Source: a virus. From it: 37,772 bases of DNA. Each line of letters begins with the position of its first letter. Within the stretch, counting starts at the first letter, position 1. The position numbers and the translations under genes were made by a program. Positions 19,427-37,772 of this stretch are shown in pieces. The stretch is taken from positions 1 to 37,772 of IMG/VR virus record IMGVR_UViG_3300037882_002418; one strand, 5' to 3'. Below the pieces are notes generated by a model, which ran no database searches, was not told the DNA's origin, and saw nothing but the letters and a program-made list of their open reading frames with translations.

Positions 19427-19766
19427 GGCCGTAGTCGTCTCCGCCATTTTCTTTTGTGCGATCAACAACGTGTGTTTTGAGCCATATTGTTTTCTTTTGT
19501 GTTGCTGTCGTTAAAACTATTTTTATGCGAGCCCAACCAGCTTCATTAAACGTTATCAGACACGAAGTTACGCCGCTGACAAGTGTGGGTGTTCCGATGC
19601 CTGCATTGCTTGATCCATAGTTTTCCCATTCAACAGATGTGATGACCGAATTGTCATCTTGCCATGGTGTGCAATCGATTTGATAATTGACAACATCTCC
19701 GATCGAAGCGTTGTCAATGAAAGCATCGACTTTTGTACGAGTCGCAAGTACGAAGCTGACGGTCAT
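19416..19766 (-). CDS. Small Ig-like/beta protein upstream of terminase
   Basis: 116 aa. Beta-sandwich pattern: D-V-V-N-Y-Q-I, I-T-S-V-E-W, G-T-P-T-L-V-S-G-V-T-S-C-L-I-T-F, A-R-I-K-I-V-L-T-T-A-T-Q-K-K-T-I-W. Similar short Ig-like units are seen in phage head or fibre proteins. Its ATG overlaps the stop of the NusG-like gene (ATGA). No enzymatic motif. Function unknown; possibly a virion decoration protein. Confidence 0.55.
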   Translation of the reverse strand: MTVSFVLATRTKVDAFIDNASIGDVVNYQIDCTPWQDDNSVITSVEWENYGSSNAGIGTPTLVSGVTSCLITFNEAGWARIKIVLTTATQKKTIWLKTHVVDRTKENGGDDYGHGN

Positions 19767-20299
19767 TTTTGATCCTGTTTTATGGCTGCCGCAGAGCAGC
19801 CTTTTTCACAAGGTGCTCCGTTTGGGGCGATCATTCGTGTTGTTGATTGCACGATTGTATGCATGCCCAGAAGTTCGACTAAAAGTGCTACGCGCTCTTT
19901 GTTGGAATAGTGAACTATTCCACTTATACCTGAAAGCGGTCCGACTGTAAATATAATTTTTTGGCCTTTTTCATATTGCACTGGCTTAACCAAATCCTCA
20001 ACAAAACTTCCCTGATCGATTAAAGCTTCAACAAATCCTTTTGGAAGCAGCGCAGGCATTCCGCTTGCAGCTCCAAGCATTTTATAAACTCCGCGATGCG
20101 AGCTAATCGACTTCCATGCTCTGGCGTTAGCCAAATCAATTTCAACAAAAATATAACCACGGAACATTGGAACAGGAATTTTCTTTGCGTCGTTTTGCAG
20201 GGTCAGTTTTGGGCAATAGCACTTGAACCCAGATTGCTCTAAGTTCTTAATTGCATAATCTTCGCATTGAGATTTTACTTGAACGACGATCCAAGGCAT
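19763..20299 (-). CDS. NusG/RfaH-family transcription elongation (antitermination) protein
   Basis: 178 aa from the ATG at 20297-20299, which has AAAGGAACCTCA upstream; a longer frame to 20434 has no good site. N-terminal NGN domain: P-W-I-V-V-Q-V-K-S-Q-C-E-D-Y-A-I-K-N-L-E, the Y-C-P-K-L turn, then P-M-F-R-G-Y-I-F-V-E-I-D (about 44-55) and the S-S-H-R-G-V-Y-K-M-L-G signature (66-76). KOW domain about 111-147 with V-G-P-L-S-G-I-S-G-I-V. NusG-family proteins clamp RNA polymerase and suppress pausing and termination. Being first gene of the late operon, it likely drives processive late transcription through internal hairpins. Confidence 0.85.
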   Translation of the reverse strand: MPWIVVQVKSQCEDYAIKNLEQSGFKCYCPKLTLQNDAKKIPVPMFRGYIFVEIDLANARAWKSISSHRGVYKMLGAASGMPALLPKGFVEALIDQGSFVEDLVKPVQYEKGQKIIFTVGPLSGISGIVHYSNKERVALLVELLGMHTIVQSTTRMIAPNGAPCEKGCSAAAIKQDQK

Positions 20300-20320
20300 T
20301 GAGGTTCCTTTGTACAACAA

Positions 20321-21129: not shown

Positions 21130-21176
21130 TTTTTGTGCATTTTGTTGTTTACATTACTATTGATCCAGCATATATT
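21130..21176 (+). promoter_or_regulatory. Early promoter P1 with conserved upstream box
   Basis: TTTACA (21148-21153), 17-base spacer, TATATT (21171-21176): a good sigma70-type promoter. The -35 and 19 bases before it form a 25-base sequence (21130-21154, containing GTGCATTTTGTTGTTTACA) repeated exactly at 28765-28789. Drives the 69-aa gene at 21227. Confidence 0.75.
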
Positions 21177-21226
21177 GATCTTACTTAAGCAATAACGCTT
21201 ACGTATTTTAGAGATGAGAGAGAAAA

Positions 21227-21436
21227 ATGTTCGAAGGATTAAAACACTATGAACTTGTTATTGAACAAAATGGATCGAAGCAAATAAAGCTTTTTGGTTC
21301 ATGTTTTCAAAAAGGTTATACTGTCGTCGAGTCAATTCCAAGCGGCGGTAATGGAAAAGCACTTCCTTCTTTACGCAAGCAAGCAGCATCGCTCGCAAAA
21401 CGTAACAAAATCCCATTCATCGATAAAACAATTTAA
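21227..21436 (+). CDS. Small early protein
   Basis: 69 aa: an N-terminal beta region (YELVIEQNGSKQIKLFGSCF) and a basic C-terminal helix (LPSLRKQAASLAKRNKIPF). The leader AGAGATGAGAG before the ATG is shared with the 28840 gene. No family recognised. First gene behind promoter P1. Confidence 0.6.
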   Translation: MFEGLKHYELVIEQNGSKQIKLFGSCFQKGYTVVESIPSGGNGKALPSLRKQAASLAKRNKIPFIDKTI

Positions 21437-21465
21437 ACAAAACAACATAGAGATAAGAGATCAAC

Positions 21466-21639
21466 ATGACAGATTTACAAATTTCAGTTATATCTATTTT
21501 ATGCGCGACGGTTATTGCGACAACTATTTCAGCAATAATATTTATGCCATTTCTAGTTCCATCAGAAGAACAAATCAAAAATTGCATGAAGGTAACTAAC
21601 TATAGTTACGAAAGATGCGAGTGGGAGATGACAAAATGA
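21466..21639 (+). CDS. 57-aa single-span membrane protein
   Basis: Starts MTDLQISVISILCATV; hydrophobic residues 5-32 form one membrane span, followed by a polar tail with two Cys (KNC, ERCEW). ATAAGAGATCAAC precedes the ATG. Its stop overlaps the next ATG (ATGA). No family recognised. Likely an inner-membrane early protein, perhaps involved in host takeover or superinfection exclusion (inference from topology only). Confidence 0.55.
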   Translation: MTDLQISVISILCATVIATTISAIIFMPFLVPSEEQIKNCMKVTNYSYERCEWEMTK

Positions 21640-22115
21640 GTATGATCTTACGTATTAAAATTGAATATAGCGGCGAAGATAAAGTCAGAGGTTGGACAAA
21701 AGAGCAGCGTGATAGCATGCGCCAATCAATTATGGCTTTGCGTGAAATTGAAGAGCCAAAAACAGATGAATATAAGGACAAAGAAGGAAAGAATTGCTCT
21801 TATACTGTTTTTAATTTAGCAGGCGAGCATCTTGTTACAGAACAAGAAGCCGCTTGGTTAAAATCAAATGAAGTTGATTTTATAATTAAAGACTTTAAAA
21901 ATACATATAAATCGCAAAATATGTCTGACGGCAATCAATACCATTACCACCTGCCAAACATTGGGCTTCTTTTAATTAATGAAGTTACGTGGTTAGAAGA
22001 CGCTTGCACAGAAGTTTTGCAAGGAAAACTTGATGAAGGCTTCCGGATCATTGCTGTTTGTCCACCAAACGGCGCTCGTCGACCTGATTACATTTTAGGT
22101 AAAGCGAGGGATTAA
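21636..22115 (+). CDS. Early protein of unknown function
   Basis: 159 aa from the ATG at 21636 (GTGGGAG upstream, ATGA coupling to the membrane gene); an ATG at 21615 is less likely. Contains R-G-W-T-K-E-Q-R-D-S-M near the start and an acidic/basic mixed helical body, then H-L-P-N-I-G-L-L-L-I-N-E-V. Mixed alpha/beta, soluble. No catalytic motif is visible. Confidence 0.55.
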   Translation: MSMILRIKIEYSGEDKVRGWTKEQRDSMRQSIMALREIEEPKTDEYKDKEGKNCSYTVFNLAGEHLVTEQEAAWLKSNEVDFIIKDFKNTYKSQNMSDGNQYHYHLPNIGLLLINEVTWLEDACTEVLQGKLDEGFRIIAVCPPNGARRPDYILGKARD

Positions 22116-22117
22116 AC

Positions 22118-22342
22118 ATGACCGATCAATCTAAACCAAACAAGCATCGTCACCGCGGTCCTTATGACAGAGGTTCGGCAGATGCTTATTACGGACGTTC
22201 TTATTCGCCGCATTATTATGTTGATGAAAGTTTTCATGCGGCAAAAATAACGCGCGATCAAATGACGCCTGAGCAAATCGCCGAATACCGCGAAGGATAT
22301 GAACAAGAAGGAAGCAGCAAGGATTGGGGCAATGCCAATTAA
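22118..22342 (+). CDS. Small conserved phage protein (H/Y/R-rich)
   Basis: 74 aa. The R-G-S-A-D-A-Y-Y-G-R pattern and a C-terminal M-T-P-E-Q-I-A-E-Y-R-E-G-Y-E-Q motif belong to a family frequently seen in phage early regions without known function. Good GAGGG site. The gene overlaps the following HTH gene by 11 bases. Confidence 0.6.
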   Translation: MTDQSKPNKHRHRGPYDRGSADAYYGRSYSPHYYVDESFHAAKITRDQMTPEQIAEYREGYEQEGSSKDWGNAN

Positions 22343-22505
22343 AAAACTTCAAATTGAACATGAAATTTCTATATGTCTTCATTATAAAAAGGGATTAACC
22401 ATGAAGGAGTGTGGAGAGTTGTTTGGTATAACAAAGCAAGGAGTAGCCTATGTTTTAAAGAAACGTGGAGTTAAATCTCACAGCAGAGGATATAGAAGAA
22501 AATGA
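22332..22505 (+). CDS. Small helix-turn-helix DNA-binding protein
   Basis: 57 aa from the ATG at 22332, with AAGGA 8 bases upstream. Residues about 22-45 (LTMKECGELFGITKQGVAYV) form a clear HTH with a basic C-terminus (KKRGVKSHSRGYRRK). Small regulators of this shape can act on phage promoters, so it is a candidate binder of the repeated boxes in the region; which DNA it binds is unknown. Confidence 0.6.
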   Translation: MPIKKLQIEHEISICLHYKKGLTMKECGELFGITKQGVAYVLKKRGVKSHSRGYRRK

Positions 22506-22693
22506 CAATTGTGAAAGTAATATTTAAAAACAACAAATGGATTACACCTTGGGGACATGAGTTTAACACAAGGTCTGAATTGGATGCTTTTATTCTGGGT
22601 ATGAAATACATTTCGGGTTGCCTTAAGACGCATTCCGAATACTTGTTAGAGAAAGTTGATTTTAGCAAAGAGGATACAGAAAATGAAAACTAA
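22502..22693 (+). CDS. Small early protein
   Basis: 63 aa, coupled to the HTH gene (ATGA). Begins with a strand-like I-V-K-V-I-F-K-N-N-K, then T-P-W-G-H-E-F-N-T-R-S-E-L-D-A-F and a helical tail with acidic end. No family recognised. Confidence 0.5.
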   Translation: MTIVKVIFKNNKWITPWGHEFNTRSELDAFILGMKYISGCLKTHSEYLLEKVDFSKEDTENEN

Positions 22694-23048
22694 ACTAGAT
22701 AAAGTGCCAGATGAAGTTTATATTTCTAAATATTCAAAAGAATATTTTATTGAAGGTGAAATAGTTAGAACAGGAACATCTGTCACAACTTATTTTAATG
22801 GAAATTCTGTAATTGAACCTGTATACAGAAGAGCAGGTCAAACTAAAATGTATAAAAAATTCATTCGAGCAGACAGCGCCGAACCAGTGAATAAACAGAT
22901 GTTGGATGTTTTGAACAACACCGAACTAGCAAAAACACGTATTGCCAAATTAGAAGAGGCTTTGCGTTGGTACGCGGACAGCGACAATTATTGTGACGAT
23001 CAACCAATATTAAACGACTTTGGAAAAAGAGCAAAGGAAGCGTTATAA
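22683..23048 (+). CDS. Small phage protein with ALRWYAD motif
   Basis: 121 aa from the ATG at 22683 (AGAGG upstream); a start at 22656 is unlikely. The C-terminal part E-E-A-L-R-W-Y-A-D-S-D-N-Y followed by D-F-G-K-R-A-K-E-A-L is a motif seen in many phage early proteins. The N-terminal half is beta-like and basic. TAATG coupling to the 31-aa ORF. Function unknown. Confidence 0.55.
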   Translation: MKTKLDKVPDEVYISKYSKEYFIEGEIVRTGTSVTTYFNGNSVIEPVYRRAGQTKMYKKFIRADSAEPVNKQMLDVLNNTELAKTRIAKLEEALRWYADSDNYCDDQPILNDFGKRAKEAL

Positions 23049-23143
23049 TGACATTTTTAGGAGGAATGATTTTGTCAGCGCTTTTTCTAATATATCTAGA
23101 ACTGTGCAACATTAAAGAGATATTGAAAAGGAAATTAAAATGA
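23048..23143 (+). CDS. 31-aa membrane microprotein
   Basis: Reads MTFLGGMILSALFLIYLEL, then a basic tail (KEILKRKLK). One short membrane span with a basic C-terminus. Its ATG overlaps the preceding stop (TAATG) and its own stop overlaps the next ATG (ATGA), so translation is coupled on both sides. Could be a membrane modulator; no homology can be assessed at this size. Confidence 0.5.
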   Translation: MTFLGGMILSALFLIYLELCNIKEILKRKLK

Positions 23144-23457
23144 CATTCGAACATTTACATGAATATGTGTTTTTCTTAATTTTAGCGCAAGTAATAACTG
23201 TTGCTTTTATACGCGCCGCCCGATTAAGAGATGCTGAAAACGAATTGCCGCTTGACTCAGTAATTGCGCGCGTTATTTTACATGCTGGCGCAGTTGCAAT
23301 TGTCACAAACTCAATTATTTTAGGTATGGCGAACGGCTTCGTTTATTTAATTTTGTGCTATACGACTTCGCGCAATTCAGTGTATATCCATTTCTGCCTG
23401 CAAATCGTTTGGGCATGGATTGCCTGGTCGACTGTAAACCCACAAGGATCTTTTTAA
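23140..23457 (+). CDS. Polytopic membrane protein
   Basis: 105 aa with three hydrophobic segments: about residues 9-24, 43-63 and 65-96. His/Glu residues precede the first span. No catalytic motif. Coupled to both neighbours. Suggests a small inner-membrane protein of the early region, possibly blocking superinfection or altering the host membrane; the sequence does not show which. Confidence 0.55.
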   Translation: MTFEHLHEYVFFLILAQVITVAFIRAARLRDAENELPLDSVIARVILHAGAVAIVTNSIILGMANGFVYLILCYTTSRNSVYIHFCLQIVWAWIAWSTVNPQGSF

Positions 23458-23786
23458 TGTCTAAAGTATACATTACCCAATCGACGCCGCACGATCTGAC
23501 GCCCGCTATTAAGTTTGGCGAGCCGACGATCTTGCTTAAGTCAGCAAAGGATCAGACATTTGCTCCGCAGCCGGTGTTCCGTGAGCTAAAGCAAAAGCTG
23601 AAAGACTTCTCGGACCTCGACTATATATTATTGGTCGGAGATCCTGTTGCTATGGCTCTTGCTGTGAACGCAGCTGCAATGGCGAACAACGGACGGGTGA
23701 AGCTTCTTAAATGGTCAAAACGCCATGAGGGATATTTTCCAATTGAAATCGATTTATACGACAGAGGGAATTATGCCCAGCAATAA
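23457..23786 (+). CDS. Small conserved phage protein
   Basis: 109 aa from the ATG that overlaps the preceding stop (TAATG) with AAGGATC upstream. Contains Y-I-L-L-V-G-D-P-V-A-M-A-L-A-V-N-A-A-A followed by N-N-G-R-V-K-L-L-K-W, a pattern I know from phage hypothetical proteins of this size. No catalytic residues visible. An alpha/beta fold is likely. Confidence 0.55.
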   Translation: MSKVYITQSTPHDLTPAIKFGEPTILLKSAKDQTFAPQPVFRELKQKLKDFSDLDYILLVGDPVAMALAVNAAAMANNGRVKLLKWSKRHEGYFPIEIDLYDRGNYAQQ

Positions 23787-23958
23787 GAAAAAACAACCGC
23801 GGACAGATCCTCCATGCAGCTATGCTCGACTTGCTCGCACTCGCGGCATGGTACATCTCGCAGCAGAATGCGGCTGCCCTGAATGCGACAAATTATTAGG
23901 ACCACCATATACATATAAAGATAAGGAAGACGAAGACGATGCTTTTCACACACAATAG
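23773..23958 (+). CDS. Small Cys-containing protein
   Basis: 61 aa from the ATG at 23773 (AGAGGG upstream). Basic start (PSNKKKQPRTDPPC), then E-C-G-C-P-E-C-D-K, three closely spaced Cys that could form a small metal site with the earlier Cys. Acidic tail overlaps the next gene by 20 bases. No family recognised. Confidence 0.5.
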   Translation: MPSNKKKQPRTDPPCSYARLARTRGMVHLAAECGCPECDKLLGPPYTYKDKEDEDDAFHTQ

Positions 23959-24337
23959 AACTGGAGTACAATACCGAACATTGTTTAAAGCCTTTGATAC
24001 CGAGCGCCAATGCCCGTCGATTGTTTATATGCAATTGACAACAGGAGCAATTTTTGTTCGAGATGAAAAAGACTTTGACCAGAAGTTTACTCCGCTCGGA
24101 GATCCGCAGAAGAATATTATTCCGCACGATGCTGGAGCTCATGATTTGTTTAGCGCTTATATTCGATCTGTTCAGAAATTGACAGCAAGCAATATGACGC
24201 GCTACAAACATGCATTACAAATTCTAAGCGAAAATGGATGGCCAACAGTGCGCGCGGTTCCCGAGTCGCGGCGCGAGGCTTTCCTTGAAGCAGTAGAAAA
24301 ACTTGAACCCATTAACCCAGTCGTAGGAGAAGAATAA
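23939..24337 (+). CDS. Early protein of unknown function
   Basis: 132 aa. N-terminal strands (VQYRTLFKAF, YMQLTTGAIFVRDEKDF), a helical middle (HDLFSAYIRSVQKLTASNM) and a C-terminal acidic tail. Its stop overlaps the next ATG (TAATG). AAGGAAGACG precedes the ATG. No motif found. Confidence 0.5.
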   Translation: MLFTHNRTGVQYRTLFKAFDTERQCPSIVYMQLTTGAIFVRDEKDFDQKFTPLGDPQKNIIPHDAGAHDLFSAYIRSVQKLTASNMTRYKHALQILSENGWPTVRAVPESRREAFLEAVEKLEPINPVVGEE

Positions 24338-24942
24338 TGTCAAAAGAAAAACAAATGGCCGCAGTTGATGTCGCTGCACTTCAAGCTGATGCTGAAGAAC
24401 AAGCAACAAATCAAGCAGCTCGATTTGATCTAAGCGATCTTGTCAAAAAAGGCGAAGAACTCGAAGAGCTTCGTAAAAAGCTTGACGTTGCATCTAAGAT
24501 AGTTTCAAGTCTCTCGGAAGAAATACGCGTACTTGAAACCGAGACGCTGCCTGATATGTTGATGGCTCTTAAACTCAAAGATCTGACTCTTGCTTCGGGC
24601 GCCAAGATCTCGTTATTCGATGTCATCGGTGCAACCATCACTGATGAAAATCGTGAAGATGCTCATACATGGCTCCGCGAAAACGGTCACGGCGACATTA
24701 TCAAAAACAATGTGACATTGACTTTTGGTAAAGGCGAAGATCACGCAGCCACTCTTTTGATTAAGCACCTTCTCGACCTGCGGAAGAACGGTGCCACCAA
24801 ATTCGGTGACCTCGTTCAAAAAGAAGCTGTCCATCCGCAGACATTGAAGGCCTTTACAAAAGAGCAACTTGCAAGCGGAAAACCATTTCCCGGCGAGCTG
24901 TTTAAGTTGTACACTGGTCAAGCTGTTAAAATCACAAAATAA
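24337..24942 (+). CDS. Conserved phage replication-region protein
   Basis: 201 aa. Helical N-terminus with a coiled-coil stretch (KKGEELEELRKKLDVASKIV), then strands, then E-N-R-E-D-A-H-T-W-L-R-E-N-G-H-G-D-I-I-K and V-H-P-Q-T-L-K-A-F-T-K-E-Q-L, a layout seen in a widespread podovirus family just upstream of SSB-like genes, where its role is unknown. No catalytic motif. Strong TAATG coupling to the preceding gene. Confidence 0.6.
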   Translation: MSKEKQMAAVDVAALQADAEEQATNQAARFDLSDLVKKGEELEELRKKLDVASKIVSSLSEEIRVLETETLPDMLMALKLKDLTLASGAKISLFDVIGATITDENREDAHTWLRENGHGDIIKNNVTLTFGKGEDHAATLLIKHLLDLRKNGATKFGDLVQKEAVHPQTLKAFTKEQLASGKPFPGELFKLYTGQAVKITK

Positions 24943-24952
24943 GGAAGAGAAA

Positions 24953-25267
24953 ATGTCAGAACAAAACCAAACACCTGAGGTCATGATTACAGATCCAAAA
25001 CATCATGCATTTAATGATGATATATCAAAAACGATTATAAGTCATGCTCAAGCATTGCGTCCAATCGAGATGATTGCAATATTGAGTTATGCCGTCGGAG
25101 CGTTGATTTCATTGTTGCCTGATGAACTGGTTCAGAATGGAGCTGCCTTGGACCTCGTGCAGCGGAACATGGACAATGGTAATATTGACACAAACGGAAT
25201 GCTCAAACAAGTCACCTTGCTAATTGGCAAAGAAGACGAGATCCCAGAAGCTGAAGTTGTAAACTAA
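24953..25267 (+). CDS. Small helical early protein
   Basis: 104 aa from the ATG at 24953 (AAGGAAGAG upstream). Contains R-P-I-E-M-I-A-I-L-S-Y-A-V-G-A-L-I-S-L-L-P, a hydrophobic helix too short for confident membrane insertion, and an acidic C-terminus. No family recognised. A 70-base untranslated gap follows before the SSB-like gene. Confidence 0.5.
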   Translation: MSEQNQTPEVMITDPKHHAFNDDISKTIISHAQALRPIEMIAILSYAVGALISLLPDELVQNGAALDLVQRNMDNGNIDTNGMLKQVTLLIGKEDEIPEAEVVN

Positions 25268-25337
25268 TTCGCCGCAAGGCAAATCGCGTTTTGTGCTCGC
25301 GCGTCATCGGGCACTAGAAAAACTAAAGGAGACTAAA

Positions 25338-26174
25338 ATGACTAAAGCACAAAAACAAGAGACTGAAGAGTCAAAAGCAGTTGCTACAAAAACTCAAGCG
25401 GGTTTGCCTGCTGGGATGGACTTGACTTCGTTGCAGGCTGACGCCGGCGCCGGATCCTCGAACATCACAGCCGATGATATGCAGACGCCAATCATTTCGA
25501 TCTTGCAGGCCAACAGCCCGCAATGCAAAAGATCTGATGGCAAATATATCCAAGGCGCAAGCGAAGGCATGCTCTACAACAACGTTACGAATGAGATTTA
25601 CAATGGAGAGGAAGGGATCAAAATTGTTCCTTGCTTCTTTGAAAAAGTCTTTATTGAGTGGAAACCGAACCGCGGAGGCCTTGTTGCTATCCACGGAGCT
25701 GAGACACCGCTCAAAGATAAAGTCAAAGAAGTTGAAACTCCAGACGGTAAAATTGTTCCAACTCTTCCGAATGGCAATCAGTTGATCGAAACCAATCAGC
25801 ATTATGTGTTGTTGGTGAAAGATGACGGAAGCTACGAGCCTGCGGTTCTCGCGTTGTCATCATCTGCGTTGAAATCATCACGTCAATTGAATACACTTAT
25901 TAAGCGCGTTGTGTTACAAGGTCCTAATGGTCCGTTTAACCCAGCATCTTATTACAGCATGTTTAAATTGACAACAAGTGCTCGCCAAAACGATCAGCAT
26001 TCATGGTTTGGATGGACAATCGAAAATCTTGGCGCGGTTCCAACAATGGACCTTTATAATGCTGGTAAAGCATTGGAACAAGCGGTCAATGCTGGTACGG
26101 TTAAAGTCAAACAAGATGAGTCAGCGCACAATCCTGCGACTGGCGAAGTTGTTGACGAAGAAATTCCGTACTAA
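25338..26174 (+). CDS. Probable single-stranded DNA-binding protein
   Basis: 278 aa from the ATG at 25338 with AAAGGAGACTAAA. The centre is beta-rich (I-K-I-V-P-C-F-F-E-K-V-F-I-E-W, S-Y-E-P-A-V-L-A-L) and the C-terminus ends EVVDEEIPY, similar to the acidic SSB tail ending DDDIPF. Located directly before the primase-helicase. I infer an SSB role from tail and position; the core was not recognised as a classical OB fold. Confidence 0.55.
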   Translation: MTKAQKQETEESKAVATKTQAGLPAGMDLTSLQADAGAGSSNITADDMQTPIISILQANSPQCKRSDGKYIQGASEGMLYNNVTNEIYNGEEGIKIVPCFFEKVFIEWKPNRGGLVAIHGAETPLKDKVKEVETPDGKIVPTLPNGNQLIETNQHYVLLVKDDGSYEPAVLALSSSALKSSRQLNTLIKRVVLQGPNGPFNPASYYSMFKLTTSARQNDQHSWFGWTIENLGAVPTMDLYNAGKALEQAVNAGTVKVKQDESAHNPATGEVVDEEIPY

Positions 26175-26189
26175 TATCCTGGAATGAAT

Positions 26190-26216
26190 AAGGCGGCGGT
26201 CATCGGCTGCCGCCTT
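26190..26216 (+). terminator. Hairpin between SSB-like and primase-helicase genes
   Basis: AAGGCGGC (26190-26197) pairs with GCCGCCTT (26209-26216) around an 11-base loop; followed by AATTTCCC, a poor U tract. Likely a partial terminator or mRNA-stabilising element that sets a high SSB to low primase ratio. Confidence 0.55.
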
Positions 26217-26249
26217 AATTTCCCGAACATTTGAGAGATAGAGATTTAC

Positions 26250-28733
26250 ATGACTGAAGATACCAAATTTGCGAGTGCTTTTTCCGCTATTCAAAAGCTT
26301 GCTAATAATATGCGCACAGACGTTGTGGCGCTATGGAGAGACAAGCAGCCAGGAGAGAAGCGCGGAACATATTCCCCTCGCCGAGACTCAGCCGATAATT
26401 TTACGCCATTGACCTCAATTGATCTTCATAATCATTTGGCGGGTCATAAACCAATTGGCTTATATGTATTCCCAGCGGACATCGGACCTCATGGTTTAAT
26501 CCGCACAGCTATTGTCGATTTTGATGACAAAGAAAAAAGACTTTCATGGCCGCAACTTTGTCAACAGGCTGCAGTTGTCTCTGATGAATTAAAAAAATTA
26601 GGTTTAAAGCCTTGGCCCTGCAGATCTGGTTCTGGTCACGGTGTTCACTTGTGGGTAACATGGGCAATGCCGCAATCTGCAGGAGCGGTTCGGATCTTGC
26701 TTCGTCAGATAATTGATAAAGCAAAATTAAGTTGCCATGTTGATTTATTCCCAACATCGGATCAGTTACGCTATGACGGTGAGACATTAGAACTCGGATC
26801 TCTTGTCGCTCTTCCTTGTGCTCGTATGTCACGCCCGATTGTAAATCTTGACACAGGTGAATGTGTCGAAGATCTTAACAGCATCTTTAATGGACCCGAA
26901 GACTCAGATCCAATCAGAATGACATCTGCGCTCGATACAGCAGCGCTTGAACGCGATGCAGGTAAAGGCGGAATTACGACCGAGAGCTATGGACCCGTGG
27001 ACCTCGACACATTAGCCGAAGCTTTGAGTTATATTGACACAGATGACTATGAGATTTGGCGTGACGTTGGTATGGCATTGAAGCATGGAGTTTCAAACAA
27101 TCAATTGAATGAAGCTGATGCTGAAAAATTGTGGACTGATTGGGCGAGCAAAGATAGTAAATACGATCAGCGCGGTCAAGATTATAACTGGAGACGCTTC
27201 AGACCAAATGGAACCCTTCAAATCGCAACGATCTGGTATAAGGCAAAAGAAGGCGGATGGAAACCGGCTCGCGAAACCCGGACCCCGACAATAGCAACAG
27301 TGACGAAAAATTTCGATGCTGGAGCAAAACCTTTATGGCACAATGACAACGAAGTTCCTGACTACGTTGCTCAATTAAATAAAGATCATTTTTTGGCGGC
27401 AGAAGGCGGCAAAGCAACCGTGTTTAAAGAAGAATGGGATCCGGTTTTATCTCGTCATAAATTGACACGTTTGAACCCAATGGATTTTCGTTTGCTTCAG
27501 TCCAATATTAAGATTGTTGTTGGACACAGCAAAAAGGGCGTTCCCATTATTGAGAAGCTTGGCGATGCATGGCTCGATAGTGAATATCGTCGTCAATATT
27601 CTAAGATTGCATTAATGCCAGAAGGCGCAGATCATTCAACATATAATTTATGGCGCGGCTGGACAGTCGAACCGAGCGAGGAGGGAAGTTGTGAAATCTT
27701 CAAAGAGCATTTGTTTAACAACGTTTGCGTGGGTGATCGCGAAGCGTTTGAATATTTGTGGAACTGGTGCGCCCTTACGATGCAGCGTCCACACCAACCA
27801 ATTGGAACAGCTATTGTTATGCGAGGAGATCGCGGGACAGGAAAATCAACTTTCGCTCGCATTATTGGCGAGCTTTTTGGCCAGCATTTCTTGCAAGTCA
27901 CGTCGAGTCGAGATCTTACGGGGCGCTTCAATGCGCACTTACGAGATTGCATCTTGTTGTTCGCCGATGAGGCGGTATGGGCTGGGTCGAAGTCGGAAGA
28001 GTCAACGCTTAAAGGACTTATTACAGAACCCTATCTCTCGATTGAAGGAAAAGGTCGTGATCTCTACCAGTGTCGGAACATGCTTCACCTTATTATTGCA
28101 ACAAACAGTGAGTGGTCCGTTCCAGCGGGATTGGACGAGCGTCGCTTCATGGCGATCCATGTCGGAAACGCACAACAACAAAACACAAGCTATTTCAAAA
28201 AACTATGGCATGAGCTCAACACTGGCGGCAAAGCACGGTTGTTGTGGGAGTTGTTAAATCACAATATCAGTGGATTTGATCCATTTAAAATACCGCAGAC
28301 AAAAGAATTGACGAAGCAAAAACTTTTGTCGCTTGACGCTCACAATGAATGGTGGCACGAAAAACTTGATAACGGTGCAGTGCTTCCAACAATGTCATGG
28401 GATGAACCAATGCCAATTCAAGCTTTATATCTTGACTATGTACAGCATTGCCGTTTGACTGGACAGCGAGCGCCGAAGTCAGTAAATTATCTCGGAAGTA
28501 AATTGCGCCAAATGCTTCCTGCAGAGCCGCAAGTTACTCGTTCACGTTTGCAGCATGATATGGAGTTTGGAATTTCAAAACTTGTGGCTGGAACTGTTCA
28601 GACTATGTGGAAACTTCCAAATCTTCAAGAATGTCGTGATTTCTTTGATAAAAAGGCTCGCGCCCAGATCAATTGGACAGTCACAGGATCCGAACCCCCG
28701 GTCAAGAAACCTGATGAAGAGATCGCTTTTTAG
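26250..28733 (+). CDS. Primase-helicase (AEP primase + PriCT-2 + SF3-type helicase)
   Basis: 827 aa. N-terminal archaeo-eukaryotic primase of TOTE type: I-V-D-F-D-D with catalytic-type D90 and D92, then S-G-S-G-H-G-V-H-L-W (126-135) and an L-V-A-L-P-C-A-R strand. A PriCT-2-like region follows near 250-350 (I-D-T-D-D-Y-E-I-W-R-D-V-G-M-A-L). C-terminal helicase of the DUF5906/SF3 type: Walker A G-D-R-G-T-G-K-S-T (526-534), Walker B L-F-A-D-E-A, sensor I-I-A-T-N-S-E. It ends DEEIAF, an acidic tip. GAGAGATAGAGATTTAC precedes the ATG. Main replicative initiator/primase of the phage. Confidence 0.88.
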   Translation: MTEDTKFASAFSAIQKLANNMRTDVVALWRDKQPGEKRGTYSPRRDSADNFTPLTSIDLHNHLAGHKPIGLYVFPADIGPHGLIRTAIVDFDDKEKRLSWPQLCQQAAVVSDELKKLGLKPWPCRSGSGHGVHLWVTWAMPQSAGAVRILLRQIIDKAKLSCHVDLFPTSDQLRYDGETLELGSLVALPCARMSRPIVNLDTGECVEDLNSIFNGPEDSDPIRMTSALDTAALERDAGKGGITTESYGPVDLDTLAEALSYIDTDDYEIWRDVGMALKHGVSNNQLNEADAEKLWTDWASKDSKYDQRGQDYNWRRFRPNGTLQIATIWYKAKEGGWKPARETRTPTIATVTKNFDAGAKPLWHNDNEVPDYVAQLNKDHFLAAEGGKATVFKEEWDPVLSRHKLTRLNPMDFRLLQSNIKIVVGHSKKGVPIIEKLGDAWLDSEYRRQYSKIALMPEGADHSTYNLWRGWTVEPSEEGSCEIFKEHLFNNVCVGDREAFEYLWNWCALTMQRPHQPIGTAIVMRGDRGTGKSTFARIIGELFGQHFLQVTSSRDLTGRFNAHLRDCILLFADEAVWAGSKSEESTLKGLITEPYLSIEGKGRDLYQCRNMLHLIIATNSEWSVPAGLDERRFMAIHVGNAQQQNTSYFKKLWHELNTGGKARLLWELLNHNISGFDPFKIPQTKELTKQKLLSLDAHNEWWHEKLDNGAVLPTMSWDEPMPIQALYLDYVQHCRLTGQRAPKSVNYLGSKLRQMLPAEPQVTRSRLQHDMEFGISKLVAGTVQTMWKLPNLQECRDFFDKKARAQINWTVTGSEPPVKKPDEEIAF

Positions 28734-28764
28734 TGTAAAATCAATGCTTTATAAAATAAATGCG

Positions 28765-28811
28765 TTTTTGTGCATTTTGTTGTTTACATCTGTTCTCTAA
28801 CATGATATAAA
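28765..28811 (+). promoter_or_regulatory. Early/middle promoter P2 with conserved upstream box
   Basis: TTTACA (28783-28788), 17-base spacer, TATAAA (28806-28811) with an extended -10 TGA just before it. The 25 bases at 28765-28789 are identical to 21130-21154 at P1. Drives the 28840 gene and the nucleotide/replication block behind it. Confidence 0.75.
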
Positions 28812-28839
28812 TGGATCAACTAAAGAGATGAGAGAAAAC

Positions 28840-29034
28840 ATGGATTTCAAAACGGTCAAAAACCCTTATGTCGCCACCTATAGCAAATACGCCCATGCCT
28901 GGACTGTTTGCGGTAGATTTGTGATAGATGGAAATATTAAATTCCATTCAATGTGTCAAGCCCGTGATGAAGACACCGCTCGTCTCATAGCTAAAGCTTT
29001 AAACGCTTATTCAACCAACCAACAAGGAGAGTAA
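28840..29034 (+). CDS. Small early protein
   Basis: 64 aa from the ATG at 28840; a start at 28828 is too close to its site. K-N-P-Y-V-A-T-Y-S-K-Y-A-H-A-W-T-V-C and a C-terminal helix with D-T-A-R-L-I-A-K-A-L-N-A-Y. This resembles the small phage proteins that bear an R-x-I-A-x-x-L-N-x-Y C-terminus. The leader AGAGATGAGAG is the same as at 21227. Function unknown. Confidence 0.6.
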   Translation: MDFKTVKNPYVATYSKYAHAWTVCGRFVIDGNIKFHSMCQARDEDTARLIAKALNAYSTNQQGE

Positions 29035-29035
29035 A

Positions 29036-29521
29036 ATGCCACGTGCAAAAAAGACTACAACTGAGAAAAAACCAAAACGCGTAAAAAAAGTTGACGAGAC
29101 AAAGGTTAAAAAACCTAAAGCTCCAAAAACTCCTAAAGCGCCTCGTAAACCAAAAGCTGAGAAGGTTGTGAAAGCAGCTAAAACTCCTAAAGCGCCTCGT
29201 AAACCAAAAGCTGAGAAGGTTGTGAAAGCAGCTAAAGAGCCAAAGGTCAACGAAAACTGGATCCCGGTCGCAGAACCAACAGACATTAATTTTGATCAAG
29301 ATTATGTTGGTGAAAAATCAGGCGCCTACATTAAGCGCTTGTTAGAAGCTAATTCACTTACAACTGAAGAAATCGTTGAAGCGGTGAAGAAAACATATCC
29401 AAAATCTAAAGTCAAAAATTCTGACGTCGGTTTTCACCGAGCAAAACTCAAAGCTGAAGGAATTGCCACTCAGGTCGTCCGCATCAGTAAAGACGGTCAA
29501 CGCTATACATTAGGCGTTTAA
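29036..29521 (+). CDS. Lysine/proline-rich histone-like protein with C-terminal helical domain
   Basis: 161 aa. Residues 1-72 are K/A/P/T-rich, like histone H1 C-terminal tails, and contain two copies of TPKAPRKPKAEKVVKAAK. The C-terminal ~85 residues have a compact helical look (G-A-Y-I-K-R-L-L-E-A-N-S-L-T-T-E-E-I-V-E-A-V), possibly a small helix-turn-helix. Good ribosome site (AAGGAGAGTAAA). Probably binds nucleic acid non-specifically; a role in compacting DNA or silencing the host is inference. Confidence 0.65.
   Translation: MPRAKKTTTEKKPKRVKKVDETKVKKPKAPKTPKAPRKPKAEKVVKAAKTPKAPRKPKAEKVVKAAKEPKVNENWIPVAEPTDINFDQDYVGEKSGAYIKRLLEANSLTTEEIVEAVKKTYPKSKVKNSDVGFHRAKLKAEGIATQVVRISKDGQRYTLGV
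29126..29236 (+). repeat. Two tandem 54-bp repeats in the histone-like gene
   Basis: 29126-29182 is identical to 29180-29236 at a period of exactly 54 bases (18 codons, frame-preserving). The identity at DNA level, including synonymous positions, shows a recent duplication that may vary in copy number between isolates. Confidence 0.9.
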
Positions 29522-37235: not shown

Positions 37236-37696
37236 AATTGTCGCTCTCTTTCTCTACGTTTTTGAAGAATTGGTTTACCGCCTGCAAAGCGCCATTTAAG
37301 AAGTTCATTACAGGCACCAACAAAATCTCCATAGTTGGCTCGTTTGACTAAAGTTGATTTGCGCGCCGCGCCCAGTCCAACATTGTATGCCCAACTGGTT
37401 AAAGCCGCGTGAACTTCTGCAGGCATTTCGGGTTCGATCATTGAGTCAACCGCGACAGCAAAAACACCTAGTCGTGTATTAAAGAGCGCGTCGCACTCTT
37501 GCTTGGTTTTGCTGTCTCCCATTTTGACGCCTTCTGTCTCTCCATAGCAGATTGTTGGAACTCCGACGCTATCGAGATACGCAGACGTTCGTAACCCCTC
37601 TTCACGAGCAATGAACGGGGTGGCAAGTGTGAGGACTGCTGCTGTGACAAGAGATGCTTTCCTTCCTTTGGGCAATATGTTTTTTATGTTCATCAT
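37208..37696 (-). CDS. SAR endolysin (GH24 lysozyme)
   Basis: 162 aa from the ATG at 37694-37696, which overlaps the holin candidate's stop across the circle; a second ATG is next to it. An uncleaved-type signal/anchor, about residues 14-30 (ASLVTAAVLTLATPF), precedes the catalytic triad E33, D42, T48 (E-8-D-5-T spacing as in T4 lysozyme and R21). Start at GTG 37750 is unlikely. It degrades peptidoglycan after release of the anchor by the holin or membrane depolarisation. Confidence 0.88.
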   Translation of the reverse strand: MMNIKNILPKGRKASLVTAAVLTLATPFIAREEGLRTSAYLDSVGVPTICYGETEGVKMGDSKTKQECDALFNTRLGVFAVAVDSMIEPEMPAEVHAALTSWAYNVGLGAARKSTLVKRANYGDFVGACNELLKWRFAGGKPILQKRRERERQLCLRGLNRL

Positions 37697-37772
37697 GGGT
37701 GAAATAAAACTCCTACGACTTTCAATATACCAGAACCGACGACCGTGCACAGCAAAGATATAAAGGCAACAA
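37674..37772. repeat. Terminal direct repeat, copy 2 of 2
   Basis: Exact copy of bases 1-99. It joins the lysis genes into a single cassette across the contig ends. Confidence 0.95.

Follow-up and report, generated by a model that had tools for sequence, protein, structure and literature searches.

Two predicted T4-type early promoters with an identical upstream segment in the early and replication block of an uncharacterised phage

Results

The phage record studied here (37,772 bases, analysed as a whole and called the window below) carries two sites, P1 and P2, which are identical over their upstream halves, have the same spacing, match known phage early promoters and recur in unrelated phages. 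Judged from the sequence, both are best read, with a probability of about 0.8, as strong early promoters of the T4-early type for the host sigma70 polymerase, in which the 18 bp upstream of the -35 element would serve as an UP element. Transcription, binding of alpha and timing at both sites we infer from these features.

P1 and P2 share the upstream half of a promoter

The late genes of the window lie on the minus strand, and the early and replication block occupies the plus strand from 20798, with P1 ahead of nearly all of it. The gene ahead of P2 encodes the primase (AEP primase and DUF5906), and downstream of the 64-aa ORF that follows P2 are the genes for a Lys-rich protein, a thymidylate kinase-like protein, thymidylate synthase, DNA polymerase and a helicase. 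A Lys/Pro-rich protein encoded at 29036-29521 (+) has a 54-bp tandem repeat inside its gene. The minus-strand late block is headed by a gene for a NusG/RfaH-like transcription antiterminator (19763-20308, minus strand; phrog_6386, E 1e-10), which may help late transcription. A 99-bp exact direct terminal repeat (1-99 and 37674-37772) probably reflects a circular or permuted genome whose assembled ends overlap. Neither a search of IMG/VR via the primase nor a megablast comparison of the early half with phage records brought up a close relative of the window.

The 25-bp segment TTTTTGTGCATTTTGTTGTTTACAT is 100% identical at 21130-21154 and 28765-28789, the two copies being 7635 bp apart. This exact match had been claimed in a sequence-only reading of the same DNA and was confirmed by direct reading and by a repeat search of the window. 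A third copy of its 19-bp core GTGCATTTTGTTGTTTACA was not found in the window at up to 3 mismatches, and dinucleotide shuffles gave an expectation of 0.01 matches, with none of 100 shuffles yielding two. Therefore, the repeat is not due to chance.

The spacer of 17 bases and the -10 element noted earlier at both sites were likewise found on reading the sequence (Table 1). The -10 hexamers TATATT (P1) and TATAAA (P2) each agree with TATAAT in 5 of 6 positions, both being imperfect, and a TGn extended -10 is present in P2 (TGA) and absent from P1. Within -40 to -60 both copies have A/T tracts, TTTT at -43 to -40 and TTTTT at -53 to -49, and P1 has an extra T7 tract immediately 5' of the upstream segment at about -63 to -57. 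The likeness ends just past the -35 element. The spacer, the -10 element and the distance to the leader differ, the stretch from the box to the leader is dissimilar, and the predicted start lies about 44 nt ahead of the ATG in P1 and about 22 nt in P2. As the similarity stops after the -35 element, what is repeated is a promoter's upstream half and not a complete promoter-leader cassette, so that only this conserved half remains of the near-duplicate cassettes described before.

The leader AGAGATGAGAG that had been assigned to both genes is indeed exact at both and ends 5-6 nt ahead of the ATG (21227 and 28840), but it does not go with the promoter pair specifically. With 2 mismatches allowed, 9 copies are found in the window vs about 8 expected. 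Since the similar leaders AGAGATAAGAG and GAGAGATAGAGA precede start codons without a promoter box, a leader of this type is not a feature of a cassette, and it is probably a purine-rich translation-initiation sequence.

Table 1. Positions of promoter elements, leaders and first genes at P1 and P2 in the window.
Feature	Positions	Strand	Remarks
P1 upstream segment TTTTTGTGCATTTTGTTG	21130..21147	+	-53 to -36; UP-element-like; two T-tracts ~10 bp apart
P1 -35 element TTTACA (with preceding G, GTTTACA)	21148..21153	+	sequence and matrix
P1 -10 element TATATT	21171..21176	+	spacer 17 nt; predicted start ~21183
Purine-rich translation leader AGAGATGAGAG, P1 gene	21210..21220	+	exact
ORF, 69 aa, first gene after P1	21227..21436	+	no family match
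Similar leader AGAGATAAGAG	21449..21459	+	5' of ATG 21466; no promoter box
Leader GAGAGATAGAGA	26233..26244	+	5' of primase gene ATG 26250; no promoter box
P2 upstream segment	28765..28782	+	same letters as P1 segment
P2 -35 element TTTACA (GTTTACA)	28783..28788	+	sequence and matrix
P2 extended -10 TGA-TATAAA	28803..28811	+	TATAAA at 28806-28811; spacer 17 nt; predicted start ~28818
Purine-rich translation leader AGAGATGAGAG, P2 gene	28824..28834	+	exact
ORF, 64 aa, after P2	28840..29034	+	no family match

P1 and P2 match T4-type early promoters

Early promoters of T4 have GTTTAC at -36 to -31 (PMC1524935) and are of the UP/-35/TGn/-10 type read by the host polymerase, where the UP region consists of A/T tracts between -40 and -60 (PMC2988021). 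In P1 as well as in P2, GTTTAC is found at -36 to -31 (GTTTACA in both), followed by the 17-nt spacer and a TATAAT-like -10 element.

A GTTTACA-N17-TATAAT matrix was built from early promoter sites of T4 and Acinetobacter phage KARL-1 alone. The pattern scan at spacer 17 yielded 30 sites in T4 and 38 in KARL-1, which are pattern matches rather than mapped promoters and in some cases lie inside genes. With the core and the full matrix alike, P1 and P2 came first and second among about 75,000 positions of the window, and the full matrix scored them at 21.0 and 20.7 vs 12.7 for the next best position in the window. When the sites of the T4-like contig G004 were included (T4+KARL+G004), a pair of sites scoring at least 15 was seen in 0 of 20 Markov-randomised windows. 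With a T4-only matrix the P2 core ranks just fifth. Scored by itself, the upstream segment does only moderately well with the KARL-1 matrix, at ranks 55 and 76 of about 75,000, and does not stand out with the T4-only matrix, because the proximal tract of T4 is A-rich and not T-rich. The earlier assignment of P1 and P2 as two promoters is strongly supported by this ranking with an independent matrix and also by the other phages described below, in which the box predicts a -10 element at exactly 17 nt.

With the early promoters of T4, P1 and P2 share the GTTTACA -35 element, the exact 17-nt spacer, the A/T-rich upstream tract and the position on the early strand, and P2 in addition the TGn ahead of the -10 element. 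However, their proximal tract is T-rich, their -10 elements are off consensus, and the phage has two copies only and is not T4-like. The early promoters of the Lazarusvirus KARL-1 are similar in having a T-tract at about -51 to -47, and one site of G004 equals P1 at 33 of 34 bases, whereas both of these phages have many more copies per genome and are otherwise unrelated to the window. E. coli UP elements of the rrnB P1 type resemble the segment in their in-phase A/T tracts at -40 to -60, 5' of the -35 element. The segment departs from the selected A-tract UP consensus of E. coli.

We propose that P1 and P2 would be read by host RNA polymerase with its housekeeping sigma factor. The conserved 18 bp 5' of the -35 element would dock two alpha C-terminal domains on T-tracts at about -43 to -40 and -53 to -49 (in P1 also at about -63 to -57), spaced one helical turn apart. 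P1 would open the early operon, and P2 would restart transcription past the primase gene and feed the genes for nucleotide metabolism and DNA polymerase. Because they belong to the same promoter class, both would fire together early, co-expressed via a common constitutive early class and not via a shared operator. The window ORFs examined included no recognisable gene for a phage RNA polymerase, so that the host polymerase is expected to read both sites. One point against the UP element is that the copies agree exactly over 25 bp, GTGCA included, which is tighter than an UP element usually needs.

The box recurs in other phages and in bacteria

An exact search of IMG/VR with the 19-bp core matched one contig, L001, which has 24 bp in common with the window and TATAAT at 17 nt. 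In L001 repeated AACCA...TTA-type motifs (e.g., AACCAACCACTTATGAAAAA) lie 5' of the box at about 1560-1800, possibly forming a second regulatory array. When the box TTTTTNTGNATTTTNTTGTTTACA was used as a pattern without any -10 element, 11 stretches of IMG/VR matched, and all ten with enough downstream sequence had TATAAT or TATAAC at exactly 17 nt. Leaving the five middle bases free gave at least 45 independent matches, at least 11 of them with a -10 element at spacer 17 and, among the matches listed, none at spacer 16 or 18. The pattern TTTTGTTGTTTACA-N15-19-TATAAT was found in 55 IMG/VR stretches, 34 of which had spacer 17 (22 independent), vs 3 of 15 stretches for a control with permuted upstream letters. 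The -10 element at 17 nt from the box in other phages therefore shows that the box belongs to a sigma70-type promoter, of which it forms the upstream part. Several promoters of the P1/P2 class per genome are found in other phages, too.

The phages carrying the box are very different from each other. G007, to which G003 is kin, and G004 are T4-like and encode a T4-type DNA polymerase, and G013 and L099 encode, by ORF reading, an integrase, a RecT/ERF-like protein and a YqaJ-like exonuclease. In blastp the carriers have at most a few proteins in common with the window, e.g., thymidylate synthase, one match being a remote one to a 472-aa late protein. This recurrence speaks for the host RNA polymerase as the enzyme that reads the box in all of them.

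Bacterial genomes contain 43 stretches with TTTTGTTGTTTACA-N17-TATAAT, many of them ahead of ORFs, and thus the pattern is not restricted to phages. In several gut proteobacterial MAGs (L108, L129, L136, L145) it precedes apparently one conserved gene, indicating that this form of promoter is also used by some bacteria. A literature search on GTTGTTTACA returned no relevant phage paper among the matches listed.

Alternative explanations for the conserved segment

The upstream conservation had been taken as a sign of selection for a binding site. Selection is supported by the recurrence of the box in unrelated phages, but a dedicated regulatory site is not required, because the segment recurs in phages that have almost no genes and no detected regulator in common with the window. 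An operator on which a phage- or host-encoded regulator would switch the early and replication blocks jointly is possible but not needed, and we regard it as unlikely. It would account for a match that is exact over 25 bp and extends over the non-A/T bases GTGCA separating the T-tracts; GTGCA is common to L001 and its kin and nearly so in the groups of G004 and G013. Groups with an NTGNA middle have the -10 element at 17 nt in 3 of 3 independent cases vs 9 of 42 for other middles (matches listed). However, the middle bases vary in other promoters of the class. Imperfect dyads can be drawn at both sites, but they differ (CAC-TTTTT-GTG in P1, ATGC-N8-GCAT in P2). A candidate regulator would be the 68-aa helix-turn-helix-like protein encoded at 22299-22505 (+), whose PHROG DNA-binding match is weak. 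No regulator common to the window and the box-bearing phages, which share almost no genes, was found by tblastn of eight small window proteins including this one, the sole match being a trivial one of 21 aa. Co-regulation of the two blocks thus is plausible in the sense of one promoter class with the same early timing, and no stronger sense is supported. That TTTTTRTGMATTTTKTTGTTTACA is the specific site of a widely conserved host factor or of a particular alpha subunit lineage appears quite unlikely; if true, unrelated phages (T4-like, integrase-bearing and this one) would each have gained it for transcription in the same host group.

It is very unlikely that the upstream gene ends in an intrinsic terminator which overlaps the promoter and has the T-rich segment as its U-tract. 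By sequence reading, hairpins lie directly 5' of TTTTGTTG in other phages, e.g., in L005, L027, L030 and several KARL-1 promoters, and P1 contains an inverted repeat of 10 bp, though a weak one. However, the folds are weak (-6.3 kcal/mol, z -2.4 for P1; -4.6 kcal/mol, z -0.07 for P2; z -0.6 and 0.07, respectively, in longer context), no stem is common to both sites, and neither passes a terminator scan, a stable G+C stem with a U run being absent. Rfam gave no match. Least probable of all is a recent duplication or gene conversion of the promoter segment without further meaning. Although 25 bp are exactly identical within one genome, the identity ends just after the -35 element, beyond which spacer, -10 element and leader distance differ, and the same segment is present in other phages. 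As an origin of the two copies, a duplication could be compatible with promoter function.

Discussion

Read as early promoters for the host polymerase, P1 and P2 appear real, functional-looking and ordinary, i.e., members of a known promoter class in a new phage, and would involve no new mechanism. They provide a credible transcription map for an uncharacterised phage, in which an early operon start and an internal restart would both be served by the host polymerase. The promoter grammar of T4 early genes, with a T-rich upstream segment, would thus also occur outside T4-like phages, and this may aid the calling of early promoters in metagenomic phages.
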